Assembly: GCA_026993805.1 (NCBI GenBank)
Contig: JALWSA010000061.1
Location: 1 to 37,229, forward strand
Direction of reading: 5' to 3'
Length of the DNA: 37,229 bases
From: Thermotogaceae bacterium
GTDB taxonomy: Bacteria; Thermotogota; Thermotogae; Thermotogales; Thermotogaceae
Under the pieces are notes generated by a model. The model saw only the letters and a list, made by a program, of their open reading frames with translations. It was not told where the DNA came from and did no database searches. Position numbers and translations under genes: made by a program. This document shows positions 6,732 through 14,718 of the stretch, one piece after another (within the stretch, counting starts at the first letter, position 1; the number at the start of each line of letters is the position of its first letter).

Positions 6732-7030
6732 CTATTTCCATACCGTCACAACCTCTTTAATGTATGGTTTTATGAACGGAGTCTTGCTTTTCTAAGCGAG
6801 AAGATCCACCGCCAAGCCCAAAAGTTTTTCGAGATCCTCTTCAATTCTTACAAACTCAATAAATGTGGGAGTTTCTTCAAACTCAACAATTATGTCTATA
6901 TCACTCGACTCTTTCTGCTCTCCCCTGGCGTAAGAGCCGAATATTTTCATTTCCTTGATTTTGTATTTTCTTTTCAATACCTCTCTTTGTGGCTATTCAA
7001 TATTTCTATTATCTTTGACAGAGCCTTCAT
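6732..7030 (-). pseudogene. Broken MntA-like nucleotidyltransferase
   Basis: The pieces of a roughly 95-residue minimal nucleotidyltransferase are all present but in two frames. From the ATG at 7030 (GGGGGAG just upstream) the translation MKALSKIIEILNSHKER ends at a stop. A shift near 6975-6985 restores LKRKYKIKEMKIFGSYARGEQKESSDIDIIVEF, with the GSx10DxD catalytic motif intact. An in-frame TAG near 6793 then interrupts it, after which KSKTPFIKPYIKEVVTVWK (the expected C-terminal tail) continues in the same frame to 6732. It lies just downstream of HepT and resembles the intact MntA upstream, so it is probably a decayed paralogue. A sequencing error could explain one lesion but hardly both. 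Confidence 0.75.
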
Positions 7031-7075: not shown

Positions 7076-7423
7076 CTATTCATCTCCTTCTATCTTCTTT
7101 AACATCTTCTCTATCTTTGCCTTCAAATCTGGTAATTCCGCCTTTATAGTATTCCATACAAGTTCGTGCTTTATGCCGAAGTAAAAATGTATAAGCTTAT
7201 CTCTAAAACCTGCCATTTCTTTCCAAGGAATATGAGAATACTTTTCTCTTATCTCATCAGGAATATGCTTTGCGGCTTCCCCTATTATTTCAAACTTCCT
7301 TATGACGGCGCTCGCAGTCTTATCATCCATTCTAAATTCCTCGAAATCCATTCCTTCCACAAACTTTTCAATTGCATGAATAGCTTCAAGAATGTCTTTA
7401 AGATACAGCTTAATATCCCTCAT
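7076..7423 (-). CDS. HepT-type toxin (DUF86, HEPN fold)
   Basis: The 115-residue, mostly helical protein has the HEPN RNase motif R-x4-H-x-Y as RDKLIHFYF (R74, H79, Y81), along with the family segments AVIRKFEIIGEAAKHIP and DIKLYLKDILEAI. HepT toxins are RNases or tRNA-cleaving enzymes. The cognate MntA silences them by transferring AMP to the motif tyrosine. Its ATG overlaps the stop of the upstream mntA gene (ATGA), the standard operon form. The gene is AT-rich (about 37% G+C in one sampled 60-nt block, against about 50% in one from asnS), which is consistent with acquired DNA. All active-site residues are present. Confidence 0.92.
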   Translation of the reverse strand: MRDIKLYLKDILEAIHAIEKFVEGMDFEEFRMDDKTASAVIRKFEIIGEAAKHIPDEIREKYSHIPWKEMAGFRDKLIHFYFGIKHELVWNTIKAELPDLKAKIEKMLKKIEGDE

Positions 7424-7713
7424 ATATAAACCACCTCTCGCTCTATCCTATCCCTTAGCTCATCTCTTATTGCGTCCCTGGGAACAATGTCCACGGGAAG
7501 ACCCAACTTCTCTTCCAAAAATAGAGAGAGCCCAACGAAATCGAAAAGTGTCGCATTTTCTTGAAAATTGACGAGTATATCCACATCACTCGCCTCTTTT
7601 TGCTCTCCTCTTGCGTAAGAGCCAAATATCCCGATTATCCTTGCTTTGTATTTTTTCTCGACTTCTTCCTTCAAACCCTTCACAACGCTCAAGACTTTCT
7701 CCAGAGTCACCAT
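7420..7713 (-). CDS. MntA-type antitoxin (minimal nucleotidyltransferase)
   Basis: The 97-residue protein has the minimal nucleotidyltransferase motif GSx10DxD (G31, S32, D43, D45, in IFGSYARGEQKEASDVDILV) and the later LGLPVDIVPRDAIRDELRDRIEREVVYI tail. MntA proteins AMPylate the tyrosine of HepT and so block toxicity. The ATG at 7713 has GAGGTGG 4 nt upstream. The frame extends upstream into asnS antisense-like sequence that is not part of the gene. It lies 38 nt after the asnS stop on the same strand, so readthrough from asnS is possible. Confidence 0.92.
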   Translation of the reverse strand: MVTLEKVLSVVKGLKEEVEKKYKARIIGIFGSYARGEQKEASDVDILVNFQENATLFDFVGLSLFLEEKLGLPVDIVPRDAIRDELRDRIEREVVYI

Positions 7714-7751
7714 CAAACCACCTCGGCGCGCGACACCCGAGCACTCCGGAG

Positions 7752-9050
7752 TCACGGGTAGACCCTGTACAGTGTTCTGGGGAAGGGTATCGCTTCTCTT
7801 ATGTGCTCGAGTCCCGCGATCCAGGCGATAGTCCTTTCGACTCCCAGGCCAAATCCGCTGTGCGGCACCGATCCCCATTTCCTAAGATCCAGGTACCAGT
7901 CATAGGCTTCAAGGGGCAATCCGAACTCTTTTATTCTTTCTACCAGAAGGTTGTAATCTGCTATACGCTCCGATGCTCCTATTATTTCCCCATACCCTTC
8001 CGGTGCCAGAAGGTCATCACACAAAACCACATCCGGATTTTCGGGATCCGGCTGCATGTAGAAAGCTTTCGCCTTTCTGGGGTAGTGCGTTACGAAGACT
8101 GGTTTTTCGAACTCTTCCGCTATAGCGGTCTCTTCGTCCCCACCGAAATCGTCTCCCCACTCTATGTCAAAGCCTTTTTTCTTCAAAAGCTTCACGGCTT
8201 CTGTGTAGGTTATCCTCGGGAAGGGTGGCTCGACCTTTTCGAGCTTTTTGATATCCCTTCCCAAGAACTCCAGATGCTCCAGTCCGTGCTCGAGCACATA
8301 CCTGACTATATAACTGACGAGATCTTCCTGCAGCTTCAGGTTATCCTCGTGCCCATAATAGGCAACTTCGGCCTCATTCATCCAGAACTCTATCAGGTGG
8401 CGCCTTGTCTTCGACTTCTCCGCTCTGAATGTGGGACCAAGGTTGTACACCTTTCCAAGCGCAAGAGCCGCTGCTTCCAGATAAAGCTGGCCGGTCTGCG
8501 CAAGATAGACCTTCCCGTAATCGAAGTAATCTAACTCAAAGAGATTTCCTGCTGCCTCACCAATGGCACCGGTGAAAATGGGAGTGTCTATAAGAACAAA
8601 GTTCCTCTCCCAGTAAAACTTCCTAATAGCCTGAATGACCTTATCCCTGAGCCGCAGAATGTGAAACTGCCGCCTCGATCTTATCCAAAGATGTCTCCGG
8701 TCGAAAAGGTAATCTATTCCATGATCGGGCTTTGTTATGGGATAAGGCTCATCCGGCTTGTGGACAACCTGAACATCTTCCGCCAGAATCTCCACGCCGC
8801 CAGGAGCCCTTTCTTCTTCTCTCACTTTTCCTCTGACTACGATAGAAGTCTCCATCGGAAGTCTTTTCACACTCTTGAACTTCTCGTCCCCGAGCGTCTC
8901 CCTTTCCAGGACAACCTGTACAAAGCCCGTCCCATCCCTGAATGTGACGAAGGAGATCTTTCCGCTCGATCTCGATCTCCAAACCCATCCCCGAAGCTCT
9001 ACACTCTCTCCAATGTGGTCTTTAAGATCCTCTACATAGACCCATTCCAT
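7752..9050 (-). CDS. asnS: Asparaginyl-tRNA synthetase
   Basis: The 432-residue class IIb synthetase charges tRNA-Asn with asparagine using ATP. The N-terminal OB-fold anticodon-binding domain covers roughly residues 1-105 (VELRGWVWRSRSSGKISFVTFRDGTG). The catalytic core has motif 2 around 204-226 (PTFRAEKSKTRRHLIEFWMNEAE) and motif 3 near 399-413 (GFGLGVERTIAWIAG). The FWMNEAE and PHSGFGLGVER forms and the absence of a bacterial AspRS insertion favour AsnRS over AspRS; the archaeal-type AspRS/AsnRS group is the alternative. The ATG follows AGGAGGGAAGGAG. It has its own promoter and is followed closely by mntA. Confidence 0.93.
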   Translation of the reverse strand: MEWVYVEDLKDHIGESVELRGWVWRSRSSGKISFVTFRDGTGFVQVVLERETLGDEKFKSVKRLPMETSIVVRGKVREEERAPGGVEILAEDVQVVHKPDEPYPITKPDHGIDYLFDRRHLWIRSRRQFHILRLRDKVIQAIRKFYWERNFVLIDTPIFTGAIGEAAGNLFELDYFDYGKVYLAQTGQLYLEAAALALGKVYNLGPTFRAEKSKTRRHLIEFWMNEAEVAYYGHEDNLKLQEDLVSYIVRYVLEHGLEHLEFLGRDIKKLEKVEPPFPRITYTEAVKLLKKKGFDIEWGDDFGGDEETAIAEEFEKPVFVTHYPRKAKAFYMQPDPENPDVVLCDDLLAPEGYGEIIGASERIADYNLLVERIKEFGLPLEAYDWYLDLRKWGSVPHSGFGLGVERTIAWIAGLEHIREAIPFPRTLYRVYP

Positions 9051-9309: not shown

Positions 9310-10410
9310 TTACTCCAGCCTAAATCTCTTGTAGAGCATGTAGGCAACGGAAGAGCCTATGGCGGCAGGTATGAGAGCTCCATGCCCGAAGAGTTCCATG
9401 GGAAAGAGCACAGCGGCTATCGGGACATTGAGCATCGAAGAAAGGAGCGCGGATATCCCGACAATAGCACCGATCTGGGCGTTCAATCCGAGTGGAGACA
9501 GAAGATAGCCCAGATTAACCCCTATTACCGTGAGCGGTGTGAAGTAGCCGCTGCTTCCCATGCTCTCTATTGTAAAGACGGTCGCCATCACTTTACCCGC
9601 AATGAAGAGATGCTCTTTTTCGCCGTAAACGATCTTCAGTCCCAGAACATTCCTGCCGAAAATAATTCCTACCAGAGAGACGAGAAGGCCGGAAAGAATC
9701 GTTTTCTGGAGCGGGGAAAGCCTTCCTGAAAACCGCCCGTACAGGACTTTCAAAAAGTATATGAGCATTCCAAAGCCGCCGAATATGGGGGCAAGGGCAA
9801 AAGCCGTTAAGACTTCACGGGTGCTTACATGCGGAAGCTGGCCTATGTTCAGCGCGTTCAGGAATATCGGCTCGAAGCCCAGAAGTCTGTAGTTGTAATA
9901 ACTTATAGTGGAAGCCAGAAATGCGGGCATCAAGTCTTCATAAGAGACCTTGTCTTTCTCGAAATACTCCACGGAAAGCAAAGCAGCAGAGAGCGGTGCT
10001 CCCAGGTAGAAAGTAAGCATCCCTGCCGCGAAGGCTATCGAGAATGTCCTCTCCCCTTTTCTGACGAAAAGCTCGGAGATTCCCTTTCCCATAAAAAGGA
10101 TTGGCGAGACAAGACCGCCGCTTCCCCCAAAGCCGAGCGTCACGGAAGTCGAGAAATACTTTAAAGCCAGATCCACAGGCCTTATCCTAACGGCTTCGTC
10201 TTTATAGGAATTAACGCCCGTTCCTAAAATCAATGGAGAGATTCTGGCGAAAAAGCCCACTATCCAGAAGCCGATTACAGGGGCAAAGATCAAAAAACCT
10301 CCCCAAAGGTCATTAAGAGACCTTATCATCCAGACCAGAGAACCCGCAAAAAACGGTGATATGAGTCCTGCAACCGCGCCCGCAAAGGCGACGAACAGAA
10401 GCTTTTTCAT
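9310..10410 (-). CDS. ClC-family chloride channel/transporter, divergent
   Basis: The 366-residue membrane protein has the duplicated ClC architecture. GTGVNSY (residues 63-69) stands for the GSGIP chloride-binding loop. GGSGGLVSP (95-103) occupies the GREGP position, and SSGYFTPLTVIG, about two-thirds along, matches the GxFxP motif. ClC proteins exchange Cl- for H+ or conduct Cl- passively. The gating glutamate of GREGP is replaced (G-L-V-S-P), which in other members gives uncoupled, channel-like chloride flux. It has no CBS domains and is shorter than typical (about 400-450). Its ATG overlaps the rsmD stop by 4 nt, so it is the last gene of the six-gene run. Confidence 0.85.
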   Translation of the reverse strand: MKKLLFVAFAGAVAGLISPFFAGSLVWMIRSLNDLWGGFLIFAPVIGFWIVGFFARISPLILGTGVNSYKDEAVRIRPVDLALKYFSTSVTLGFGGSGGLVSPILFMGKGISELFVRKGERTFSIAFAAGMLTFYLGAPLSAALLSVEYFEKDKVSYEDLMPAFLASTISYYNYRLLGFEPIFLNALNIGQLPHVSTREVLTAFALAPIFGGFGMLIYFLKVLYGRFSGRLSPLQKTILSGLLVSLVGIIFGRNVLGLKIVYGEKEHLFIAGKVMATVFTIESMGSSGYFTPLTVIGVNLGYLLSPLGLNAQIGAIVGISALLSSMLNVPIAAVLFPMELFGHGALIPAAIGSSVAYMLYKRFRLE

Positions 10411-10940
10411 ACCTTTCTTAAGATCACCACCCCGCTATCCCCGTAGTTTCTTTCCTCCAAAACTTCAAGAAACTCTGGAACAAAGATGCCTTCTTTCTTG
10501 AACTTCTCAACTATCACTATTCCCCCTTTTTTTAAAATATCCGGTCTCATTGCCTTCAAAACCTCCTCAACGAGTCCAAGCCCGTAAGGCGGATCCATGA
10601 AGATTATGTCAAAAGCCTTTCCCCTGCTCTTCACGAACCTGACCGCATCCGACTTGTATATAGTTACCTTTTCAAGAACGCCCAGACTCTCAAGGTTTTC
10701 CCTGCAAACGGATATCGCCTTTCTCGAGATGTCCACAACACTTGCGCTCTCAGCTCCCCTACTCAGGGCTTCTGCCGTCACTATACAGCTTCCGCAGAAA
10801 AGCTCCAGAAATCCCTTCCCCTTGACATCCACCATGTTAAAAATCGCCTGCCGCACCATGGAAGATGTGTAGCGCGTCCTTGGATCGGGAACGACTTTCA
10901 GGTTCCTTCCCTTGAAAATCCCGCCTGTTATCCTTATCAT
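10407..10940 (-). CDS. rsmD: 16S rRNA (guanine-966 N2)-methyltransferase RsmD
   Basis: The 177-residue protein starts with the RsmD signature MIRITGGIFKGRNLKVV...TRYTSSMVRQAIFN. It then has a SAM-binding loop FLELFCGSC (44-52), where most members have a DLFAGSG-like form. The N-methyltransferase motif DPPYG (116-120) is intact. The enzyme methylates G966 of 16S rRNA in the assembled small subunit. It overlaps both the upstream ogg gene and the downstream clc gene by 4 nt, so translation is probably coupled. The length is normal. Confidence 0.93.
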   Translation of the reverse strand: MIRITGGIFKGRNLKVVPDPRTRYTSSMVRQAIFNMVDVKGKGFLELFCGSCIVTAEALSRGAESASVVDISRKAISVCRENLESLGVLEKVTIYKSDAVRFVKSRGKAFDIIFMDPPYGLGLVEEVLKAMRPDILKKGGIVIVEKFKKEGIFVPEFLEVLEERNYGDSGVVILRKV

Positions 10941-11572
10941 TTGAACACCTCTCCAGTTTCTTTGTACCAGAGAACAAGGTCAAGAGCCGCGATGTCTATG
11001 CCAACACTCTTCGAAAAGTCTCTCATCTTCTCTTCTATCTCAAGGTACTTTCGCCTTGTAAGGCTCTTCGGGATCTCATCTATGACCCCTAAAGCCTTAA
11101 GGTTTTTGAGTATATGACGGTCAAGGATCGAAAGCGAAAGCCCTTTGCCGACATTTCTCAAAAAATGCGAAGCTTCTTTCATCCCGTAACCATCCACGAT
11201 CCTTATGAGCTCATCCCTTAGCTCCTGCTCGCTCCTGTCGCTTTCCAAAAAGCTCCTTACATCAAACCCCGAGCGAACCATTTCTCTTAACCGCACGATC
11301 CTTCCTGCTTTCGTCCTGTAAAATCTCACGCCTTTCAGGTAAGGCATTATCTCATCTTCGCTCCCAGAAAAAAGAAGGCCGCTGTCTCTTAAAGCCAGTA
11401 TGGCGTTCCATGAAACCCTGGCCTTGGACTGAGGAGTGAGAAGACAAAAGGCCATTTCCATGAAGAGCTCTTCATCTGAGTGATCGCTCAGAAAATTCCT
11501 GAACTCTTCTATCCTTGCGTTTATGATCTCTTCAACGCTTTTGTAAAGAGATATCAGATCCCGCTCATTCAT
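10937..11572 (-). CDS. ogg: N-glycosylase/DNA lyase, Ogg2 type (8-oxoguanine)
   Basis: The 211-residue HhH-GPD glycosylase removes 8-oxoguanine from DNA and cleaves the abasic site by beta-elimination. The helix-hairpin-helix and active site lie in IVDGYGMKEASHFLRNVGKGLSLSILDRHILKNL. K132 is the expected Schiff-base lysine and D151 the catalytic aspartate, as in the archaeal Ogg2 proteins and the T. maritima homologue. It lacks the N-terminal domain of eukaryotic OGG1, as expected for Ogg2. There is no Shine-Dalgarno sequence before the ATG at 11572; instead an extended -10 ends 7 nt upstream. It overlaps rsmD by 4 nt. Confidence 0.92.
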   Translation of the reverse strand: MNERDLISLYKSVEEIINARIEEFRNFLSDHSDEELFMEMAFCLLTPQSKARVSWNAILALRDSGLLFSGSEDEIMPYLKGVRFYRTKAGRIVRLREMVRSGFDVRSFLESDRSEQELRDELIRIVDGYGMKEASHFLRNVGKGLSLSILDRHILKNLKALGVIDEIPKSLTRRKYLEIEEKMRDFSKSVGIDIAALDLVLWYKETGEVFK

Positions 11573-11596: not shown

Positions 11597-12388
11597 TTAA
11601 AGAAGCCGTTCAAATCCGATTATTTCGAGTCCCTGGGTATCGTAATCCCTGAACTTGTCATCGCTCAAAATCGCCGCTCTCTTTTCTCTTGCAAGAGATA
11701 TTAAAAGCTCATCTGCCGGAGAGTGAAAGAAAACCCTGCTGCTTTTTGAAATCTGCTCGAAGACTTCCCTTTCGCTGGCGGGGATTATGTGCGGGGCGCT
11801 CCTGTCAAATACCACCCAGAAGGGAAAATAAAAGGGCTTCAATGTGGAAAGACAGTCGAAAAGATCGCCGAAAGCAGAAGGCGAAAGATCATGTTTCCAC
11901 AAAAAGTTGTTTCCATCTATCACCACTGGGCTTTTCGGTTTTCTTACCAAAGAGCTGAAAAGATAAGACTCCATGCATTCTGAGAGCTTCTGGCGAGCGC
12001 GCGTCGAAATTTCCGCCACCACCTTGCAATCCTGAAGAGCTTTTTCATCGAAATTCCAAACCGTGAAAGAGCAGCACTTTTCTATAACATCTTCGAAAAG
12101 CTCTTCTTCCTTCTCTGAAGCTTCCCTTTTTCTCTTTCTTCCTTTTAAAATTTCAAAAACTTCATCAAGCGCTTTTTCATCTATCCCAAGAATGAGCGAA
12201 GCTTCTCTTTTTCTTTTCTTCAGACTTCCCCTGCCGAAAACGAGTCTTTTGAGCGCAAGTTCTGCTATATCGGGTCCCGCCTTTGAAATGGCATCCGCAA
12301 TCCTGCCTTCGAATATGATCAAAAGATCCTCCAAATCTTCCTGATCCCATCCATCCTTTCTCAGGATCCTTAAAAGCTCTTCCTTCAT
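11597..12388 (-). CDS. Putative PIN-like (Zc3h12a/NYN-type) ribonuclease
   Basis: The 263-residue protein has a helical, basic N-terminal half (about 1-145) in which a KRKREAS element occurs twice (58-64 and 85-91). Its C-terminal half resembles PIN-like NYN/Zc3h12a nucleases. Strands ending in acidic residues line up: VVIDGNNFLW (155-164, D158), WVVFDRSAP (D195), SPADELLISLA (D226) and AAILSDDKFRDY (238-249, D243/D244). That last form closely resembles the VSNDNYRD motif of Regnase-like RNases. Four conserved acids suggest a metal-dependent endoribonuclease, but this is by motif only. It overlaps the upstream ABC permease gene by 4 nt. Its RNA target and any link to the transporter are unknown. 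Confidence 0.6.
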   Translation of the reverse strand: MKEELLRILRKDGWDQEDLEDLLIIFEGRIADAISKAGPDIAELALKRLVFGRGSLKKRKREASLILGIDEKALDEVFEILKGRKRKREASEKEEELFEDVIEKCCSFTVWNFDEKALQDCKVVAEISTRARQKLSECMESYLFSSLVRKPKSPVVIDGNNFLWKHDLSPSAFGDLFDCLSTLKPFYFPFWVVFDRSAPHIIPASEREVFEQISKSSRVFFHSPADELLISLAREKRAAILSDDKFRDYDTQGLEIIGFERLL

Positions 12389-13890
12389 GCCATCCCCTTC
12401 ATGAGCTCTTCGTACTTTTTTCTAACGCCTTTGATGGACTTGAAAATGAAGAAGGCCGTGAGGGATAGTGAACCTATGAGAATCAAAAGCCCCCACCATT
12501 TTTCCTTCACCGCAAGGCCGAAAATCGCGCCTCCCGCAAGTCCCATTATGGAGAAGGTGAGCCATGGGGACGCCTTCATGCTTTCTCTCGTAACATTCTC
12601 AGACCTTGGGGGATGCGCAAAAATGTATTCAACCCCCATCAAGGAAGCCGCTATGTGCTCAAAGAGGGCTATTCCAAGAAGCGGGAAAGCAAGCCAGCTG
12701 AAACCCTTGAAGATGGTCGAAAACAGAACCACACCGACGGCTAAAAGGAAATTAATAATCACGGGCGTGAACACCTTTCCCAAAACGATCTCTCTGAACT
12801 TGAGCGGCGCGGCTCTCGTAACCTGCCAGGCAATGAGATCTGGCGTAGTGGCAATGCTCGATTCCATCATGACGTAGAGAGAGCTTATGGGAATTGCCAC
12901 CAAAAGCGCGTAGACGGGCTCCTTAGAAGACCAACCCATGAAAGCCCCGAAGATGTACGGATAGAGCAAAAGGAAAAGGGAGTTCTCCGCCCTGAATATG
13001 GTCTTCAGGTCTTTGACGATTATCGCCATACCCTTCCCCATTCTGGAAAACTGGACCTTTCCCCTGCTCTTTCTGAAAACACTAAATCCCAGAGTTTTAG
13101 CTTCCCTTATGAACAGATAGCCAAATAAGGCTGCAAGAGCCAGAGAAAACAGTATGTAAGCGGGATTGTCCGCCCCCGTGATGGAATAACCAAGGACGTT
13201 CAAAGGACTTCTGAGAAGACCGTAAAGATTTGAAAGGCGCTTGAAAACTTCCTCAAAACCAGAAGCGTTTTCGAGATATGCGTTCATGGTGAAAACGAAT
13301 CCAATCACCGCAAGAGATTGAACGAGTATGAAGATTCTCCTCGCGACGCTCGTTGAAATTCTCTTGGCCGCGAATGTTGCGAGGTAAACTCCAAGGGCGA
13401 GCAAAAAGAGCGTATGAAAAACAGAGGAAACGGCAGCCCAGATGGCAAATGGGACACCGCCCTTGGCGTATCCGTAGGCCACAGCCACGGCCACGAGCAT
13501 TCCGAACATGGGAAGGTCGTATATGAAAGAGATGAATATCTGATACACCGTTATGGTCCATCTTCTCAGCGGGAGAGAGAGCAGAAACTCTATCTCTTCG
13601 TTCATCGAAAGGACATAAACAGCCGTTCCGATCGTTCCTATGACGAAAAATCCTCCCGCGAATACCATCCAGTAAAGTGCCGTGAGCTCGAGAAAATCAA
13701 CTCCGCCAACCGTGCTCCCCGCAAGCCTTGAAAAATTCATATCCATTATGAAAACAGTGAAGCCGAGAAAGTAAACGAAGATAAAAATCTGAACAAGCAG
13801 AGTCGTCCTTCTTGTGGCTCTGGCTTTTTTCTTTCTCGAACTCGTCTGAAGGAAAAGGCCGTATTTTAAGAAGAGCTTGAGCTCTCTCAT
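12385..13890 (-). CDS. ABC-2-type transporter permease
   Basis: The 501-residue protein has about 11-12 hydrophobic segments. After a basic N-terminus (SSRKKKARATRR) comes an LVQIFIFVYFLGFTVFIM helix. A typical cytoplasmic element, MNEEIEFLLSLPLRRWTITVYQI, matches the coupling region of ABC-2 exporters. It should form the membrane part of an exporter with the ATPase encoded immediately upstream, whose stop it overlaps by 4 nt. The substrate is unknown; bacterial relatives include drug, antibiotic and lipid exporters. No extracytoplasmic binding domain is present. Confidence 0.85.
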   Translation of the reverse strand: MRELKLFLKYGLFLQTSSRKKKARATRRTTLLVQIFIFVYFLGFTVFIMDMNFSRLAGSTVGGVDFLELTALYWMVFAGGFFVIGTIGTAVYVLSMNEEIEFLLSLPLRRWTITVYQIFISFIYDLPMFGMLVAVAVAYGYAKGGVPFAIWAAVSSVFHTLFLLALGVYLATFAAKRISTSVARRIFILVQSLAVIGFVFTMNAYLENASGFEEVFKRLSNLYGLLRSPLNVLGYSITGADNPAYILFSLALAALFGYLFIREAKTLGFSVFRKSRGKVQFSRMGKGMAIIVKDLKTIFRAENSLFLLLYPYIFGAFMGWSSKEPVYALLVAIPISSLYVMMESSIATTPDLIAWQVTRAAPLKFREIVLGKVFTPVIINFLLAVGVVLFSTIFKGFSWLAFPLLGIALFEHIAASLMGVEYIFAHPPRSENVTRESMKASPWLTFSIMGLAGGAIFGLAVKEKWWGLLILIGSLSLTAFFIFKSIKGVRKKYEELMKGMA

Positions 13891-14651
13891 TCTTTCAACT
13901 CCTCCACTATTCTCTTTATCTCTTCTTCCTGTCCAGTGAGCTTTAAGAAGAGATCTTCAAGCGTACCTTCTGTTCCCGCCTGCTCCCTTAGCTCTTCCAT
14001 CGTTCCCTGCGCTATGATCTTTCCTTTGTTTATAATCGCTATCTCGTCTGCCATCCTCTCTGCTATCTCCAGTATATGAGTCGTCATGAAAACGGTTTTT
14101 CCTTCCTGAGCGAGTCTTTGAAGGTAGAGCTTTAGTATCTTGGCGCTCTTTGCATCAAGCCCGACCGTTGGCTCATCTAAGAACATTATCTCTGGTTCTC
14201 TCATCAAAACCGAAACGAGAAGAAGCTTTTGCTTCATCCCGTGTGACATATCAGAGACATACTTGTCCAGATAATCGATGTTGAAAGCCTCCAGAAGCTC
14301 CTTCATTCTCTGCTCGACCCTGTCATCGACTTCATAAACCGCCATAATGAAGTTTAGAAACTCGTATCCCTTGAAATAAGGATATATCCTTGGCTCTTCC
14401 GGAATGAGCCCGAATCTTTTTTTAACTTCTATCTCCCTGTCCGGATACGGATTTCTCACACCCAGAATCTCAAGCTCTCCTTCATCGTGAAACAGAATCC
14501 CGGTGAGCATCTTTATAGTGGTGGTCTTCCCCGCACCGTTCGGCCCGAGGAAGGCGAATATCTTTCCCGATTTCACTTCAAGATCGATATGATCCACAGC
14601 GACGAAATCCCCGAAGCGCTTGGTCAGCCCCTTAGCCTTTATTGTCACCAA
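13887..14651 (-). CDS. ABC transporter ATP-binding protein (ABC-2 exporter type)
   Basis: The 254-residue ATPase has Walker A GPNGAGKTT (36-44), the signature MSHGMKQK (a variant of LSGGQ), Walker B IMFLDEPTVGLD and the H-loop MTTHI. It is the CcmA/NatA type that powers ABC-2 permeases. I take TTG at 14651 as the start because GGGGGTGAT lies 5 nt upstream; the adjacent GTG is an alternative. It is the first gene of a six-gene run and has a good promoter. Confidence 0.93.
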   Translation of the reverse strand: MVTIKAKGLTKRFGDFVAVDHIDLEVKSGKIFAFLGPNGAGKTTTIKMLTGILFHDEGELEILGVRNPYPDREIEVKKRFGLIPEEPRIYPYFKGYEFLNFIMAVYEVDDRVEQRMKELLEAFNIDYLDKYVSDMSHGMKQKLLLVSVLMREPEIMFLDEPTVGLDAKSAKILKLYLQRLAQEGKTVFMTTHILEIAERMADEIAIINKGKIIAQGTMEELREQAGTEGTLEDLFLKLTGQEEEIKRIVEELKE

Positions 14652-14688: not shown

Positions 14689-14718
14689 AGTATAAAATGA
14701 AGCATTAAAAACTGTCAA
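14689..14718 (-). promoter_or_regulatory. Promoter of the ABC-RNase-ogg-rsmD-clc operon
   Basis: On the minus strand a consensus TTGACA (14718-14713) is followed after 18 nt by TATACT (14694-14689). The predicted start is near 14682, about 30 nt before the ATPase start codon. Confidence 0.75.

Follow-up and report, generated by a model that had tools for sequence, protein, structure and literature searches.

The protein encoded on the minus strand at positions 11597-12388 of the window, by which we mean the whole stretch of 37,229 nucleotides that was analysed, is a member of the NYN/PIN-like superfamily. We regard it as a metal-dependent NYN (PIN-like) endoribonuclease, most likely a housekeeping enzyme that processes or degrades RNA in connection with translation and is not tied to the exporter encoded beside it (probability roughly 0.6). 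No description of the family was found in the open-access literature searched, and the family appears to represent an uncharacterised core gene for a predicted RNase.

Family membership, predicted fold and active site

The open reading frame starts with ATG, and its coordinates and strand were verified. The features of the gene are as follows.

11597-12388, minus strand: gene for the NYN/PIN-like putative endoribonuclease, 263 amino acid residues
11945-12388, minus strand: N-terminal all-helical region (residues 1-148), family-specific, with no convincing known fold
11600-11944, minus strand: C-terminal NYN catalytic domain (residues 149-263), with pLDDT of 89-97 in the AlphaFold2 model except for the last three residues, and KHNYN and ZC3H12A-C as best VIA matches
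11915-11917, minus strand: codon of D158, which lies in the D-G-x-N motif, aligns with DGSN of ZC3H12 and is predicted to be a metal ligand, 59/59
11804-11806, minus strand: codon of D195 (FPFxIVFD motif), an extra invariant acid, 59/59
11711-11713, minus strand: codon of D226, in the SPAD motif, which aligns with the second Asp of 'DD' in ZC3H12, the first being Ala here
11657-11659, minus strand: codon of D244 (SxDxFRD motif), D243 being the adjacent variable residue

The earlier note, which was made from the DNA letters and their translations, had called the protein a PIN/Zc3h12a-like putative RNase, and this assignment is supported by sequence profiles, the predicted fold and the invariant acidic residues. 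The Pfam profile PF11977 (RNase_Zc3h12a) matched the window protein with E = 0.0017 (18.6 bits for the whole protein and 20.7 bits for the domain alone), in both cases under the curated cut-off of 23 bits, and an NCBIfam single-sequence scan of this protein gave nothing below E 0.34. Among the relatives, E values of 1 or less, down to 1.2e-6, were obtained with the same profile for 35 of the 36 aligned sequences, and 19 of 61 genomes had a score above the cut-off. When a profile of the 36 members was searched against all PDB sequences, the matches were ZC3H12A (9.1e-8), ZC3H12B/C (3e-7) and KHNYN (8.3e-7); a profile of the domain alone matched ZC3H12C (3.1e-8), followed after a gap by PRORP2 (0.025) and YacP (0.42). 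The YacP/Rae1 profile PF05991 matched 2 of the 36 members at E ≤ 1, with a best value of 0.087.

An AlphaFold2 model from 15 sequences had a mean pLDDT of 89.8, and residues 149-263 were modelled as an alpha/beta nuclease domain. In the VIA comparison, the top 11 rows were taken by KHNYN and ZC3H12A/B/C (Z 9.0-9.7, rmsd 2.4-3.0, 109-118 residues aligned), followed by ExoIX (Z 7.5), PRORP2 (7.4), FEN1 (6.8) and Rae1 (6.4), and further down by HARP (5.9) and VapC (5.0-5.6). Foldseek gave a probability of 1.00 for 6sjd, 3v34 and 3v32, with weak E-values (0.09 or worse) that we count against our reading. A PIN-like core is present according to all three programs. PIN-like domains are also found in DNases, as the ExoIX and FEN rows illustrate, and this counts against an RNase. 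A structure-specific DNase of the FEN/ExoIX type, acting in DNA repair, would agree with this common fold, with the Asp that ends the second strand (VFD), a feature of FEN-type nucleases that YacP also has, and with the presence of ogg downstream and uvrB upstream in the window. However, all significant matches of the sequence profiles are to RNases, VIA places ZC3H12/KHNYN ahead by some 1.5 to 2 Z units, and the adjacency to ogg is absent in 40 other loci; we consider a repair DNase improbable and the substrate probably RNA.

For the comparison of single residues, we used a set of 59 sequences from among the 98 matching genomes, consisting of the window protein and the proteins of 58 loci, with two fetched copies fused to an L9 domain (L069 and L070, described below) left out; alignment A1 covered 35 of the 40 loci L031-L070, omitting L054, L058, L063, L067 and L068. 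Y142, D158, G159, N161, P189, F194, D195, A225, D226 and D244 are identical in 59/59, and the two L9-fused copies, which are part of A1, likewise keep the invariant residues. The four acidic residues D158, D195, D226 and D244 are thus retained in the homologues. In the HMMER alignment, D158, D226 and D244 correspond to the Asp of ZC3H12 DGSN, the second Asp of DD and the Asp of SND, respectively. D158 and D243 had been named in the earlier note as the residues to vary in a cleavage assay; D158 is invariant, whereas position 243 is variable (N in 22/59, Y in 9/59, also K, G and others) and it is the adjacent D244 that is invariant. The metal ligands of Regnase-1 are D141, D225, D226 and D244, and its D226N and D244N variants are inactive, according to a review (PMC12982082). 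Because the first Asp of the DD pair (Regnase D225) is replaced by Ala (A225) in 59/59, the metal site is not identical to that of Regnase, and is predicted from the alignment to be probably a variant of it. The Ala counts against our reading, and its occurrence throughout would suit a non-catalytic, RNA-binding relative. The four Asp and the asparagine of DGxN are nevertheless invariant at a mean column identity of 29% in the alignment, which would be unnecessary in an inactive protein, so that we give a dead nuclease little credence, somewhat less than a DNase.

The N-terminal domain had been described as basic and helix-rich. It is helix-rich in the AlphaFold2 model, but not basic, the first 140 residues consisting of 20% K+R against 23% D+E. 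A duplicated KRKREAS element, suggested to bind RNA, does occur twice (starting at residues 58 and 85), but it is present in 1/59 homologues, namely the window protein itself, so that such a role is not supported. Its second copy falls in residues 86-95, the sole segment with pLDDT <50. In the clade of the window (genera g1-g3), the protein is shorter, its N-domain being without a middle segment that is present in most others and that, in many of them, starts with an EILFWxxPxKxPxP motif. The N-domain had no relative among the PDB sequences (best, 0.17), its fold search gave no convincing match, and the whole protein had no PPR-like Pfam match.

A separate observation concerns the N-domain (residues 1-153) of the homologue at L078:7545-8171 (plus strand), for which the top VIA row was 3n0u (Z 6.3, rmsd 4.3, 138 aligned). 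This is Ogg of T. maritima (Tm1821), a homologue of which is encoded directly after the nuclease gene in the window; AGOG, MutY and OGG1 rows had Z 2.0-3.3. The Z of 6.3 is under the chance level stated for the tool, the best Foldseek E was only 1.6, and hhalign against 24 Ogg sequences gave a probability of 3.4, lower than the best of 33 controls (4.7). A degenerate Ogg/HhH-GPD fold is unlikely.

Gene neighbourhood and distribution

In the window, the gene lies in a run of closely spaced genes with the following further features.

14689-14718, minus strand: promoter-like TTGACA-18-TATACT before the ATPase gene, 11/12 bases, a consensus match only
13887-14651, minus strand: ABC ATPase gene, first of the run
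12385-13890, minus strand: permease gene (PF09847, 12TM_1), overlapping the nuclease start by 4 nt
10937-11572, minus strand: ogg (8-oxoguanine DNA glycosylase), starting 24 nt downstream of the nuclease gene
10407-10940, minus strand: gene for an rsmD-like methyltransferase (PF03602)
9310-10410, minus strand: gene for a CLC-type channel/transporter (PF00654), last of the overlapping run

The order is ATPase, permease, nuclease, ogg, rsmD and CLC channel, and the overlaps are mostly 4 nt. The TGA of the permease gene and the ATG of the nuclease gene share four bases as ATGA, with a Shine-Dalgarno-like AAGGGG just upstream of the ATG; a gap of 24 nt follows before ogg, and the pairs ogg/rsmD and rsmD/clc each share 4 nt. 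The adjacency to an ABC-2 exporter gene and the position ahead of ogg and rsmD, both given in the earlier note, are confirmed. Since the run is overlapping and a promoter-like site lies ahead of the ATPase gene, the nuclease gene is probably expressed together with the exporter genes in its own genome.

The earlier note had suggested an RNase that works with the adjacent ABC exporter in stress response or self-protection, and a functional tie to DNA repair as well; the ATGA overlap and the single promoter-like site before the ATPase gene would suit a link to the exporter. The neighbourhoods in other genomes speak against both, since homologues of the permease, ogg, clc and uvrB genes adjoin the nuclease gene in 0/40 loci (L031-L070), several of which are truncated where the contig ends. 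At distances of kilobases, these loci contain a few ABC ATPases, some weak matches to methyltransferases and a single partial match to asnS. Homologues of the exporter permease exist in 41/41 genomes, and in 11 permease loci fetched from other genomes neither nyn nor ogg was seen within flanks of only about 1.5 kb. The loci of the closest permeases, in G001 (47% identity) and G005 (46%), are likewise without nyn or ogg, and the nuclease occurs phylum-wide irrespective of the exporter locus. The exporter adjacency is probably incidental in the window, and a joint function of the two is highly unlikely.

The gene neighbourhood is unstable across the phylum. The recurrent neighbour is a gene that, in 23 of 58 loci, immediately follows the nuclease gene in the same orientation; it overlaps the nuclease gene by 4 to 49 nt depending on the chosen starts, and we take it, by eye, to be queA (tRNA queuosine synthesis). 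Its absence from the adjacent position in the other 35 of 58, the window's own family included, is counted against a link to translation. Other neighbours vary by lineage, and no small partner gene recurs throughout. A large gene of the sister genus g2 (734 amino acid residues; L031:8210-10414, plus strand) is divergent from the nuclease gene at a distance of about 186 bp, and is presumably that of PNPase, as recognised by eye.

Some other genes of the window may be mentioned here. The window ogg shows 51-60% identity to ogg of genera g2-g3, with a sharp step down to the other Thermotogota (33-39%; 42% for one fragment). At 7076-7423 (minus strand) lies a gene for a HepT-like HEPN RNase (PF01934, 1.1e-32), overlapping an open reading frame at 7420-7878 (minus strand) in which a nucleotidyltransferase motif, GSYARGEQKEASDVDI, was spotted by eye; the two are a probable HepT/MntA toxin-antitoxin pair. 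An open reading frame of 61 residues at 6792-6977 (minus strand) contains another nucleotidyltransferase motif, GSYARGEQKESSDIDI, that closely resembles the first, and is perhaps a remnant or a second antitoxin.

The family profile matched 98/103 Thermotogota genomes (79/82 of the good ones, and 37/38 genera), nearly always in single copy, and gave no match in G044, G048, G075, G082 and G083. A near-universal gene of the phylum thus appears to encode an uncharacterised RNase whose nearest solved relatives are Regnase and KHNYN, RNases of animal immunity. The frames at G089:C9:191989-192952 and G029:C22:194886-195799 (upstream part) are broken by several in-frame stops and may be copies that are decaying or frameshifted. 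When contigs from 84,980 species (one genome per species) were scanned for conserved peptides, 14 loci were obtained, all of them labelled as Thermotogota and bearing the titles Thermotogota, Thermosipho, Fervidobacterium, Pseudothermotoga or Thermotogaceae, although the strict patterns, which required exact peptides, would miss distant relatives outside the phylum.

A VapC-like toxin of a toxin-antitoxin pair would have the PIN-like fold too, as the VapC rows indicate. Such a toxin would not be expected as a core gene of nearly always one copy with a large N-domain and without a constant small partner; PADLOC gave no match and PHROG no convincing match for 3 proteins, and we rate this alternative a shade below the exporter link. 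The plasmid search gave no match, and no relative was found among 31 pattern stretches of viral contigs; a defence or phage origin was rejected on these four results. RNase E/G (PF10150) is present in 61/61 genomes and bacterial RNase P RNA in the window's own genome (G000) and in 18/21 genomes searched, so that replacement of either enzyme by the family was rejected. This leaves a protein-only RNase P, suggested by the weak PRORP2 profile match and the PRORP and HARP rows, as the least probable of the alternatives.

L9-fused copies and the proposed function

Extra copies with a Ribosomal_L9_N domain before the nuclease domain were found at four places in three genomes, all of one family (f4).

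L069:1034-1801, plus strand: L9-fused paralogue
L070:6569-7372, plus strand: L9-fused paralogue
G045:C18: L9-fused paralogue
G057:C141: L9-fused paralogue

Two of these were tested in full and matched Ribosomal_L9_N with E of 6.1e-8 and 3.4e-5, both over the cut-off, and one aligned with a real L9 at 43% over 35 residues; the nuclease domains of the L9-fused copies matched the family profile at about 1e-42 to 1e-48. The N-domain of bL9 binds 23S rRNA. Although they are paralogues, these copies give the strongest hint of the site of action, and a concrete one that lends itself to testing. As only one of 11 families has such fusions, and the genomes concerned retain the ordinary copy, the fusions need not reveal the role of the latter.

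In the mechanism we propose, D158, D195, D226 and D244 would hold Mg2+ or Mn2+ and activate a water molecule to cleave the phosphodiester bond, and the nuclease domain would cut RNA endonucleolytically, most likely when single-stranded. The helical N-domain, in the lineage of the window without its middle segment, may position the RNA or a partner. Targets would be near translation, namely rRNA, tRNA or mRNA on the ribosome. A housekeeping role there is suggested because the gene is near-universal, usually single-copy and without a constant partner, and because its commonest neighbour is a tRNA-modification gene. The queA-like neighbour, the L9-fused copies and rsmD in the window's own run are the hints of translation, and the link to it is tentative. 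The YacP/Rae1 family (PF05991) was found in 0/61 genomes, so that the present family could fill an analogous role. A bolder and rather doubtful extension starts from Thermotogota apparently having no Rae1/YacP enzyme while keeping the present gene nearly everywhere: the family would be a phylum-defining, ribosome-directed NYN endoribonuclease, with extra copies in one family anchored to the ribosome via the bL9 N-domain. If true, RNA cleavage coupled to the ribosome would have arisen here independently of other bacteria, and the active site would stand between those of the Regnase and YacP/FEN types.

Comparison with known systems

VapC toxins are small PIN proteins with an adjacent antitoxin, whereas the present proteins have about 260-390 residues and varying neighbours. 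The CRISPR-associated and MARF1 NYN RNases belong to a superfamily with a set of Asp essential for activity (PMC11346440). In contrast to these RNases, the window family is phylum-wide and had no PADLOC match. The protein-only RNase P enzymes PRORP and HARP have a PIN-like catalytic domain in common with the window protein (Z 7.4 and 5.9), but differ in that an RNase P RNA is present in the window's own genome. As to a helical region of the PPR or HARP type, the window protein had no such Pfam match and its N-domain no convincing fold match.

Rae1/YacP, a known ribosome-dependent NYN RNase, is of the same NYN superfamily (fold Z 6.4), although its profile match was only 0.42 and its family was not found in the 61 genomes; the combination of VFD and AD in the window family appears to resemble that of YacP. 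Nearest by both profile and fold are Regnase (ZC3H12A-C) and KHNYN (PF11977), with which the DGxN motif, the (A/D)D pair with its helix and the S-x-D-x-F/Y-R-D motif align. Regnase (ZC3H12) has a CCCH zinc finger after the nuclease domain (compare PDB entry 3v33); in the window protein, D244 is followed by 19 residues, none of them Cys. Three of the four metal-binding Asp of Regnase are aligned in the window protein (D158, D226 and D244), the fourth, D225, being replaced by Ala. Because of this missing Asp, the missing zinc finger and the score under the Pfam cut-off, the protein is not filed as a Regnase, though its core would work like one, and the window family has in addition the extra invariant D195 and a helical N-domain of its own.
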